Part shown: positions 3,350 through 5,589 of the stretch, one piece after another
Layout of the letters: each line of letters begins with the position of its first letter
Numbering within the stretch: position 1 is the first letter of the stretch
Notes under the pieces: model-generated
Databases searched by the model: none
Told to the model about the DNA's origin: nothing
What the model saw: the letters and a program-made list of their open reading frames with translations, nothing else
Translations under genes and position numbers: made by a program
Virus record (IMG/VR): IMGVR_UViG_3300030117_003082
Location: 1 to 31,723 of that record
From: a virus
Strand: one strand, 5' to 3'
DNA: 31,723 nt

Positions 3350-3402
3350 TGTGTCCTTTCTTTATTACATTCGGTAGCAACATCCTACTACAGGGAGAGT
3401 GT

Positions 3403-3437
3403 CCAGCGAGAACTCTCGTTCTTGCTGGTTTTTTTTT
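3403..3437 (+). terminator. Strong rightward terminator without an upstream gene
   Basis: An 11-bp stem (3403-3413 with 3418-3428, one G-U pair) with a 4-base loop is followed by nine T residues at 3429-3437 on the + strand. No + strand gene precedes it within 3 kb. A short alternative helix (GAGAGT 3395-3400 with ACTCTC 3412-3417) would compete with the stem. It may end a small RNA transcribed rightward, antisense to the start of the leftward operon. Confidence 0.7.
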
Positions 3438-3448
3438 CCCACGAGGAT

Positions 3449-3478
3449 AAAAAAAGCCCTGCCGATTAAGGCAGGGCT
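3449..3478 (-). terminator. Leftward terminator of the 4265-3551 genes
   Basis: A perfect 9-bp GC-rich stem (AGCCCTGCC 3455-3463 with GGCAGGGCT 3470-3478) is followed on the minus strand by seven T residues (3449-3455). It lies downstream of the leftward genes 4071-4265 and 3551-4069 and separates them from the 3349-83 block. It is adjacent to, and opposite in sense to, the terminator at 3403-3437. Confidence 0.8.
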
Positions 3479-3501
3479 AATCTTATTGGAACTATTATAT
3501 T

Positions 3502-3547
3502 AGGGGTTAAATCCTTTATACATTTAACGGATTGTCAAACCCCTTTT
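3502..3547. other. Two-part inverted repeat after a leftward gene
   Basis: AGGGGTT (3502-3508) pairs with AACCCCT (3538-3544), and inside it AATCC (3510-3514) pairs with GGATT (3529-3533). The + side is followed by TTTAATTT. It begins just past the stop at 3551, so on the leftward mRNA it would be a 3' hairpin ahead of the 3449-3478 terminator. On the + strand it could be a weak terminator. Confidence 0.45.
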
Positions 3548-3550
3548 AAT

Positions 3551-4069
3551 TTATATTAATGTTCCTTGTTTTAATGCATTCTTTAAGAACGCTTGGCTTT
3601 CAGCAGATTTCTTTATATCTGATTTAACCTTTTTATTATTTGAAGGAGTCCAATCTTTACCAATTATTTTCTTATATTGCTCTTTAGCAACATCTAGTAA
3701 ATATTGTGCTCTTTCAATGTTTAACTCTTGGGCTTTACTCGCAAAAGTTAGTTTATTAGATTGATTAATATCAATTTCAGTTTGATTATCTTCTGAAATC
3801 AATTTAGCAATCTTGTCTTTTGTTTTGTCGTGTGTTTCAATACATCTATCTAAATGATATTGGAACGATGCAACAAACCTTGATGCATCAGCACTTCCGT
3901 GCCACGACCAATTCTTATCTTCATAGAATACAGATACGAATTGTTCAAAGAAGTTAGTGATTGTTTCTTCAATAACTTCTTTACTAGATTCAAATGTATC
4001 TCTCATTTTATCTAGTCTTTCGTTAGAAAAATCAAATTCTCTAACTTCTGATGCTAATGTATTTGTCAT
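3551..4069 (-). CDS. Hypothetical protein
   Basis: This encodes 172 aa, soluble and mostly helical, with no membrane segment. A distinctive patch at about residues 52-72 reads EDKNWSWHGSADASRFVASF. It is followed by helices rich in Asp, Glu and Lys, and the end is basic. AAGGAG precedes the ATG, and the start lies just after the stop of the 64-aa gene, so the two are co-translated. The pair forms a separate leftward unit that ends at the 3449-3478 terminator, next to the divergence region. It may be expressed first. No function is recognised. Confidence 0.75.
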   Translation of the reverse strand: MTNTLASEVREFDFSNERLDKMRDTFESSKEVIEETITNFFEQFVSVFYEDKNWSWHGSADASRFVASFQYHLDRCIETHDKTKDKIAKLISEDNQTEIDINQSNKLTFASKAQELNIERAQYLLDVAKEQYKKIIGKDWTPSNNKKVKSDIKKSAESQAFLKNALKQGTLI

Positions 4070-4070
4070 A

Positions 4071-4265
4071 TTATTTGACTCCTTTCATATTAGCTATTTG
4101 ATTAAATGAAAATGGCGAAACTTTGTCATATATCTGACTTATTTCAGCATTTATTTCATTCTCATTATCTTTATTACGAATACTATCTAATTCTTGTACT
4201 CGTATCTTATCACTATCTGATAGACTAAACTCAAACCAATCTATCAAATCATTTACATTACTCAT
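4071..4265 (-). CDS. Hypothetical small acidic protein
   Basis: This encodes 64 aa, acidic and predicted helical (NDLIDWFEFSLSDSDKIRVQELDS). A good ribosome site (AAAGGAG) lies before the ATG. It is the first leftward gene from the divergence region. Its promoter must lie in 4277-4400, inside the same DNA that on the other strand encodes the structured RNA. The function is unknown. Confidence 0.7.
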   Translation of the reverse strand: MSNVNDLIDWFEFSLSDSDKIRVQELDSIRNKDNENEINAEISQIYDKVSPFSFNQIANMKGVK

Positions 4266-4296
4266 ATAACTCCTTTCAGTTATTGATTAATAATGA

Positions 4297-4671
4297 AACC
4301 CATATCGGGTATAGCGATATACGAAACAAGGGGGAATCCCACGAGTCAATAGCTTGGCAGGTTTACCTGCGACTCGCTTGTCTTTTACCTAATAAAGCAG
4401 ACAAAGAGTCCTATTGACCGTGAGGGTTGGATTCCTTGTTATCGTTCGCTTATCCCGATGTGTGGTTGATGATATCCCCGCAGCGAAATCACTTCGTTGT
4501 ATCAAGGTCGATAAATAAGTTATATCTTTTTGGCCACCGACATAGAGGGCAATCCTTTAGGATTGCTTAACTTATTTAGCGACAAAGAGAAGTGATTTTG
4601 CGAGGAGATTCTGTTGTAAGGAGATCGTAAGAACCATTAGCGGTTCTTACACACGCCAAAGCGTGTTTTAT
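4297..4671 (+). ncRNA. Candidate large structured RNA upstream of terS
   Basis: No gene fits here, and the + strand folds into two arms plus end hairpins. Arm 1: AACC+CATATCGGG (4297-4309) pairs with CCCGATGTG+GGTT (4454-4467). Inside it, 4313-4339 pairs with 4429-4450 (AGCGA, ACGA, AACAAG and GAATCC with small bulges), then CACG and GTCAATAG (4340-4352) with CTATTGAC and CGTG (4411-4422). This encloses the hairpins 4357-4370 and 4371-4410. Arm 2: 4483-4495 pairs with 4589-4601 (13 bp), then GTCG 4507-4510 with 4580-4583, AAATAAGTTA 4513-4522 with 4568-4577, and the hairpin 4549-4566. It ends with hairpins 4627-4650 and 4651-4666 and a TTTTATT tail. The wobble pairs (4303-4460, 4485-4599) are G-U only on the + strand, which favours a + strand RNA. 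No known RNA class is recognised. A DNA-level role (origin, pac/cos site) is the alternative. Confidence 0.6.
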
Positions 4672-4697
4672 TAGATTTAGAGAGTGTTGTAATGAGC

Positions 4698-4866
4698 TTT
4701 TAAAAGAAGCGACCGCTTGGGAGCGTTTGTCCACGACAATCTTTTAAATGCGAATGAAAACTCCATATGTAGTAGTGTGAGTAGAGAAAGGCACTAAAGT
4801 GCCATAATAATACTTGACAAGGAGATTTTAATATTCCACTAACGATAAGAAGCAGAATATATAATA
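4698..4866 (+). promoter_or_regulatory. Structured terS leader
   Basis: TTTAAAAGA (4699-4707) pairs with TCTTTTAAA (4740-4748). This encloses a short AAGC/GCTT hairpin near 4707-4718 and TTGTC/GACAA (4727-4739). A separate hairpin GGCAC-TAAA-GTGCC lies at 4790-4803. A TTGACA box at 4814-4819 has no convincing -10 at 16-18 bases, although AT-rich TATAAT (4859-4864) directly precedes the terS ATG. No ribosome site is seen before that ATG. The leader may control TerS level or be part of the packaging site. Confidence 0.4.
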
Positions 4867-5238
4867 ATGGACGAGTTAACAGATAAGCAGAAGGCATTAG
4901 TTGATACCATCGTAGCAACAGGGTGTAGTATTAAGGAAGCGTCTAAAAGTGCAGGATATTCAGCAAAAGGGAGTGAAGAAGCAGGTAGAGTAAGTGCAAG
5001 TCGCACACTACGATTACCAAAGGTACAGAAGTATATGGCTAGTAGAATAGCAGATACTCTAGGACTTGGTGCAGTGAGTGCGTCTAAGAGATTAATAGAA
5101 CTATCTTCAGGAGCTAGATCAGAATATGTTCAGCTTGAAGCTAGTAGAGATATATTAGATCGAGTAGGACTGAGAGCTCCCGAGAAAGTAAAGCATTCAT
5201 TCGAGGGAGATATCAAAGTTAATATAGATTTAACTTAG
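4867..5238 (+). CDS. terS: Terminase small subunit
   Basis: This encodes 123 aa. It selects the phage DNA and loads it on the large subunit for packaging. The N-terminus (LTDKQKALVDTIVATGCSIKEASKSAGYS) is the helix-turn-helix typical of phage terminase small subunits, followed by a serine-containing linker and LRLPKVQKYMASRI, then a helical oligomerisation region and a short C-terminal tail that would contact TerL. The length fits the family. No clear ribosome site precedes the ATG, and the next in-frame ATG is too far into the domain, so I keep this start. It lies between two structured non-coding regions and about 1.1 kb before terL. That unusual setting suggests these regions carry the recognition site or regulate expression. 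Confidence 0.85.
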   Translation: MDELTDKQKALVDTIVATGCSIKEASKSAGYSAKGSEEAGRVSASRTLRLPKVQKYMASRIADTLGLGAVSASKRLIELSSGARSEYVQLEASRDILDRVGLRAPEKVKHSFEGDIKVNIDLT

Positions 5239-5258
5239 TCCTACGAGAGGGAGAGAGT

Positions 5259-5317
5259 ACGAGAGAACACTAGTTCTTTCGTGGGGAGAGAGAGTGAGAG
5301 AACACTAGTTCTTTCAC
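5259..5317 (+). repeat. Twin 20-base repeats forming covarying hairpins
   Basis: A 20-base sequence (GAGAGAACACTAGTTCTTTC) occurs at 5261-5280 and 5296-5315, spaced 35 bases apart. Each forms a 10-bp hairpin with an ACTA loop: 5259-5268 with 5273-5282, and 5294-5303 with 5308-5317. The outer pairs differ between copies, ACG..CGT in the first and GTG..CAC in the second, so both sides changed together. That is internal covariation supporting a selected stem. Each stem holds one G-U pair only if read on the + strand. Confidence 0.75.
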
Positions 5318-5321
5318 ATAT

Positions 5322-5433
5322 AAGAGGCACATCGGTACGATGTGGCGATTGCCGACCGCCTCTTTCGGAGGGGGGAGGCCAAAATCTTCACAGCGTGAAG
5401 AACGAGGGGAGTTGAACACACAATAAGGTTCAA
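5322..5433 (+). ncRNA. Further structured RNA after terS
   Basis: AAGAGG (5322-5327) can pair with CCTCTT (5359-5364), enclosing the 7-bp hairpin CACATCG-GTA-CGATGTG (5328-5344). A G-rich run (5370-5378) follows, then the hairpin CTTCAC-AGC-GTGAAG (5386-5400) and TTGAAC (5412-5417) with GTTCAA (5428-5433). No protein-coding frame fits 5239-5454. The GC content is visibly higher than in neighbouring DNA. Together with the twin hairpins it may be a terS 3' UTR, a stand-alone RNA or a packaging site. Confidence 0.45.
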
Positions 5434-5454: not shown

Positions 5455-5589
5455 ATGGCAAAGAAGAAGAATACATTTGGAATTAACACCTATGTTAAAA
5501 CAACCAAGAAGAAAATAGGTCGGCATAAAAAAAGATTAAATAAATCTGAAAAAAGGAATTTTAAAGCATACAACCGTCAAGGGCGTTGA
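5455..5589 (+). CDS. Small basic Lys/Arg-rich protein
   Basis: This encodes 44 aa, with KKKNTFGINTYVKTTKKKIGRHKKRL and KSEKRNFKAYNRQGR. It is strongly basic with no hydrophobic core. I have seen similar short KTTKKKxGRHKKRxNKSEK sequences in marine phages, but with no assigned role. Nucleic-acid binding is a reasonable inference from its charge. A weak AAGG lies about 15 bases before the ATG. It follows the structured region and precedes the first TGTGCGTT motif. Confidence 0.65.
   Translation: MAKKKNTFGINTYVKTTKKKIGRHKKRLNKSEKRNFKAYNRQGR

Follow-up and report, generated by a model that had tools for sequence, protein, structure and literature searches.

Strong folding without sequence conservation upstream of terS in marine phages related to Pelagibacter phage Hodr: a possible single-stranded DNA element

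What is encoded, if not a protein, in the heavily structured gap directly upstream of the terminase small subunit gene (terS) of a short-tailed marine phage? The window analyzed here, i.e., the whole 31,723-nt stretch of IMG/VR record IMGVR_UViG_3300030117_003082, is a contig of such a phage, and its nearest named relative is the isolate Pelagibacter phage EXVC031P Hodr (67% identity for TerL and 57% for TerS). The gap (4266-4866) separates the leftward genes gB and gA from the rightward terS (4867-5238, + strand; phrog_51, E 3.5e-11). An original prediction made from the letters of the window had described two long helical arms and end hairpins in this gap as an undescribed structure, more likely a + strand RNA than plain DNA palindromes, in a place typical of a packaging RNA or a regulatory element. 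We have followed up this prediction by folding, comparison with relatives, and analysis of loops and promoters.

The fold and its surroundings

The + strand of 4290-4675 (386 nt) folds with -156 kcal/mol compared to a mean of -95.8 (sd 5.7) for 100 dinucleotide shuffles, none of which was as good (z -10.5), and the minimum-free-energy (MFE) structure contains the predicted helices of both arms and the end hairpins. No other fold in the window is as stable as the one in this gap. Arm 1 (4297-4467; -79.9 kcal/mol on its own) is the strongest of all hairpin domains in the window, and the corresponding arm is the strongest of the complete Hodr genome. Structure scores are also high at several places in 3361-4320, so the gap is not the sole structured region.

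Fold, covariation, and a covariance model define arm 1 as a rod-like + strand hairpin of ca. 170 nt with a three-way junction at its end. Its closing helix (4297-4309/4454-4467) includes CCCGATGTGTGG (4454-4465); main-clade loci close arm 1 with the CCGTGTGTG motif, of which this is the window's version. The junction at the tip (4340-4422; alignment consensus GCTTGGCA..TGCGAC) is built from P1 (4340-4352/4411-4422), the joining segment CTTG (4353-4356), P2 (4357-4362/4365-4370), and P3 (4371-4383/4399-4410). P1 and P3 of the MFE fold are reproduced by the alignment, and the loci L059, L045, and L183 carry the motif at the same place. In main-clade loci, a small local hairpin is an alternative for the 5' strand of the closing helix: its stem reaches at least 5 in 13 of 38 loci vs. 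8% expected, which suggests two mutually exclusive folds.

The rod, which has such a junction at its end in the main clade, is followed by at least one further hairpin module. In the window, the MFE fold places the long stem of arm 2 at 4478-4605 (+), and its base CCCCGCAGCGAAAT..ATTTTGCGAGGAG is common to the short versions in L007 and L012. Downstream lie the hairpin AAGAACC-loop-GGTTCTT (4627-4650, +; MFE fold) and a terminator-like hairpin, ACACGCCAAAGCGTGT with a TTTTATT tail (4651-4666, +), that the nearest relative (L001) does not have. While the helices of the original prediction stood, its feature list had missed a promoter-like box at 4814 (see below) and a third module, AAAAGA..AGCGAC..GGGAGCG..GTCCACGAC..TCTTTT (4686-4761, +), which is conserved with related sequence in L002 and L003. 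The fold also proved as undescribed as claimed: neither the window nor 13 relatives matched any Rfam 15 family at the gathering cut-off (the best match at E<=5 was LINC00901, E 4.2, by chance), a DNA similarity search in named phages gave no match for the element itself, and no matching description was found in the papers searched.

Left of the element lie gB (4071-4265, - strand; 64 aa, without known family), which is divergent from it, and the element's conserved divergent neighbor gA (3551-4069, - strand), which encodes a helical protein of 172 aa (AlphaFold2 model with mean pLDDT 84) with the C-terminal motif Y-K-x-x-F-G-x-x-Y-x-P. The relatives of gA in the Hodr clade are distant: the gA profiles of the window's clade and the Hodr clade match each other (E 3e-6), a third clade matches weakly, and a fold search with gA returned no function. 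Behind gA, two strong terminator-like hairpins stand back to back at 3410-3490 with opposite T runs. On the other side, the window also has strong folding in the gap after terS (5240-5410; z -8.4 over the full gap), and structured gaps at this place are not general among the loci; a 32-nt direct repeat is present there (5249-5280 and 5284-5315, 91% alike). In L003, a piece of this gap, GAGAGAACACTAGTTCTTTCGT, is found upstream of terS, which suggests that modules change sides of the gene. A short ORF further downstream (5455-5589, +) encodes the basic peptide MAKKKNTFGINTYVKTTKKKIGRHKKRLNKSEKRNFKAYNRQGR and has a close relative at the same place in L003.

Conservation in relatives and the folding strand

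Two terS searches yielded 160 viral loci from IMG/VR contigs, to which Hodr was added, and removal of similar sequences left 56 independent regions upstream of terS homologues. One hairpin domain upstream of terS is better than all 30 shuffles in 44 of these 56 loci. Covariation in homologues had been set beforehand as a check, and it is pronounced: among 17 alignable versions of arm 1, 32 of 51 pairs are changed on both sides, with a covariation score of 0.429 vs. 0.169 ± 0.012 for shuffled partners and 0.06-0.13 when partners are slid. Three positions also covary in the helix that closes the second domain, CCATAGNNNN/NNNNCGTATGG. A covariance model (R1) trained on the alignable arms and tested on loci outside the training set recovers untrained + strand arms at the corresponding position of L044 (4.5e-7), L057, L007, L059, L008, L017, and L022. 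It has no match in Hodr-type loci, where the arms are equally strong but unalignable, and the homology of the two arm types therefore rests on position, neighbors, and fold instead of alignment. Between clades, the upstream sequence is almost entirely lost and the fold is kept. Since the letters change almost completely under a persisting fold, it is the fold itself that matters, and the element is conserved as a structure rather than as a sequence.

When all viral contigs were scanned with a pattern, true arms were recovered beside terS only, with the remaining matches due to chance, and the corresponding gap of phage HTVC010P has no comparable domain. The only candidates for host or prophage copies are seven contigs from marine MAGs; by their size, several of them look like virus contigs, and L211 and L213 have no strong arm. 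On informal inspection, many contigs among L001-L163 start inside the element, within a few hundred nt of the terS start, which may reflect either assembly breaks at hairpins or physical genome ends. Chance or compositional palindromes, for which the only argument is that hairpins generally occur in other parts of the window too, can be dismissed given the shuffles, the covariation, the matches at untrained loci, and the 44 of 56 loci with a strong domain.

To assess which strand folds, we defined helices in the same way from either strand and left wobble pairs out of the definition. Read on the + strand, isolated mismatches are G·T in 78 and A·C in 29 cases, an excess that persists after correction for base composition (p = 1.7e-5) and identifies the + strand as the folding and selected strand. 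The + strand of this gap is thus under selection to fold onto itself in the phage lineage, while its sequence is almost free. The original prediction had read the wobble pairs as a sign of + strand RNA; this was right about the strand and did not establish RNA, because a G·T excess fits a folded single strand of DNA just as well. Recent changes carry a weak strand signal, since close-pair substitutions in a first unrestricted count went to G·T in 133 and to A·C in 126 cases and those within arms (83 double Watson-Crick) in 40 and 23 cases, respectively. The folding-energy difference between the strands is not specific, as a coding control has the same bias. Purine-purine and pyrimidine-pyrimidine mismatches number 77 and 76, vs. 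19 and 8 in RNase P.

Loops and promoters

The loops of the element resemble DNA hairpins and are unlike those of our RNA control, which is a single family, RNase P. Typical RNA tetraloops (GNRA, UUCG) are not in excess: GNRA makes up 6 of 150 tetraloops, a background level, vs. 72 of 145 in identically processed RNase P RNAs, and UNCG only 1 of 150. Triloops of the C-GNA-G type account for 17 of 213 (3 on the other strand) vs. 0 of 75 in RNase P. GCGNAGC occurs 23 times on the + strand, where 4.2 are expected, and once on the other, while CGAAG occurs 52 vs. 10 times and is present in 33 of the 56 loci. All of the most enriched hexamers (CGAAGC, CCGAAG, GCGAAG, and AGCGAA) are on the + strand and fit C(GAA)G triloops. 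We also considered CCGAAG as the UUCG loop of a - strand RNA and rejected this, given that none of its occurrences fits. The oligonucleotide d(GCGAAGC) forms a DNA mini-hairpin of extraordinary stability (PMC10527192). Neither a GCGNAGC nor a CGAAG loop occurs in the window's own element, so the case for DNA draws on its relatives. GCGAAGC is also found on the viral strand of the phiX174 F-G intergenic stretch, the site of the complementary-strand origin.

Promoters separate the element from terS. The TTGACA box of the sigma70-type terS promoter (4814-4819, +) is conserved in place, with a weak -10 in the window, and 25 of 56 loci (3% expected) have an exact TTGACA among the 100 nt that precede terS. 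Hodr has a full TTGACA-17-TATACT promoter, and its clade has full TTGACA-16/18-TATACT promoters slightly further upstream, still 3' of the arm. Directly before the box, the window carries the palindrome GGCACTAAAGTGCC (4790-4803), a possible operator of the late promoter; palindromes of this CACTAAAGTG type also stand just 5' of the box in L003, L012, and L058. Across the 56 loci, we found no conserved sigma70-type promoter that reads into the element from its left side or drives gA, and no conserved -35/-10 pair inside the arms. Terminator-like sites on the + strand are about twice as numerous as in shuffles and have no fixed place, and a regular terminator behind the element and before terS was not found.

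The element is indeed next to terS, as had been pointed out, and shares its strand. Together with the lack of a regular terminator in between, this would fit a cis-acting 5' leader of the terS or late mRNA that controls antitermination or translation. However, the conserved promoter between element and terS in many lineages means that it is probably not a terS leader, and we consider this reading very improbable.

A site of single-strand initiation or a stand-alone RNA

The kind of nucleic acid and its function we infer from these observations. We favor, with a probability of roughly 40%, that the element acts as folded single-stranded DNA, i.e., as a single-strand initiation element, and rate such a priming site slightly more likely than a stand-alone RNA. 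Replication or recombination would expose the + strand as single-stranded DNA, on which the hairpins would fold, keep SSB off, and give the host primosome or RNA polymerase a place to land. A primer made there would then allow the complementary strand to be copied, so that the element would work like the phiX174 primosome assembly site or the ssi/Frpo elements of plasmids. Stable hairpins selected on one strand, as seen here, are the mark of such sites, and the enrichment of DNA-type loops on that strand, the GCGAAGC in the origin region of phiX174, and the lack of a conserved sigma70 promoter into the element all point the same way.

The early gene content of Hodr, the one complete genome checked for replication genes, agrees with this reading. 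It includes an ArdC-like antirestriction protein, an HTH protein with a DnaT-like domain, a YqaJ/RecE exonuclease, SSB, and RusA, and no polymerase, primase, or helicase was found among the genes scanned (part of the gene set). SSB and the DnaT-domain protein in this setting make use of the host replisome plausible for Hodr. The ArdC-like protein, which has a metallopeptidase domain, is encoded in the early region near the element (L165:13573-14457), and the window has a ParB-like protein in its place.

Known sites of this kind resemble the element in part. The phiX174 primosome assembly site is likewise a folded single strand with a GCGAAGC mini-hairpin on the acting strand, but it is a short site of a single-stranded DNA phage, whereas the present element spans several hundred nt in a double-stranded DNA phage lineage. 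These double-stranded DNA phages are not known to pass through a single-stranded stage, which counts against a single-strand initiation element. The Frpo/ssi elements of conjugative plasmids are a precedent as long, stable, one-strand stem-loops upstream of genes (PMC9849209, PMC11541004), but Frpo has -35/-10 boxes within the stem that its type of promoter needs and that are not conserved in our arms. The promoters of the N4 virion RNA polymerase are DNA hairpins with a sheared G:A pair in a 3-nt loop (PMC4496689); they are far shorter, and no N4-type RNA polymerase was found among the large proteins of the window. Further points against single-stranded DNA are that the loop signature comes from relatives and was measured against one RNA family, and that covarying multi-module folds in phage intergenic regions are usually RNA.

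Almost as likely is a stand-alone structured RNA that would be made from the + strand in the space separating the divergent units and would act in trans, be it in packaging like the phi29 pRNA, as originally suggested, or in the manner of large ornate RNAs such as GOLLD and ROOL. The covariation with a conserved three-way junction, the preference for G·T over A·C on the + strand, the several linked modules, and the constant place beside terS all suit such an RNA, and other phages have abundant intergenic ncRNAs (PMC7567579). The phi29 pRNA, too, combines free sequence with a fixed fold, a three-way junction, and a packaging neighborhood (PMC12670572), and GOLLD and ROOL are likewise large, multi-module, phage-borne, and of unknown function (PMC12286853). 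However, the element has no Rfam match, the phages studied here have terS, and the RNA is a prediction; unlike GOLLD/ROOL, which often lie near tRNA genes, it also has no tRNA nearby, and its loops are not RNA-like. No promoter into it and no regular terminator behind it were found, and wobble is low in the arms, where double Watson-Crick changes prevail.

The few wobble pairs would also suit a duplex-DNA element, such as a cos/pac or recombination site recognized as a cruciform or by TerS, and some phages carry cos upstream of terS. This is unlikely, as strand-asymmetric mismatches and loop motifs are unexpected if both strands are equal and no duplex motif of cleavage-site length conserved across clades was seen. 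Returning to single-stranded DNA, the broader proposal is more tentative still, namely that a hypervariable and covarying element of this kind belongs to a whole lineage of marine double-stranded DNA phages as a new class of single-strand initiation site between early and late units beside terS.

The marine phages that carry the element form a large group, and an isolate among them infects SAR11. It is the strongest fold of both the window and the Hodr genome and persists while its sequence turns over heavily. If it is an RNA, it would be a new class of large phage RNA in the packaging neighborhood. If it is single-stranded DNA, it would offer a testable model for how strand synthesis starts in phages that lack a primase of their own. 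With the isolate EXVC031P Hodr, either reading is accessible to experiment.
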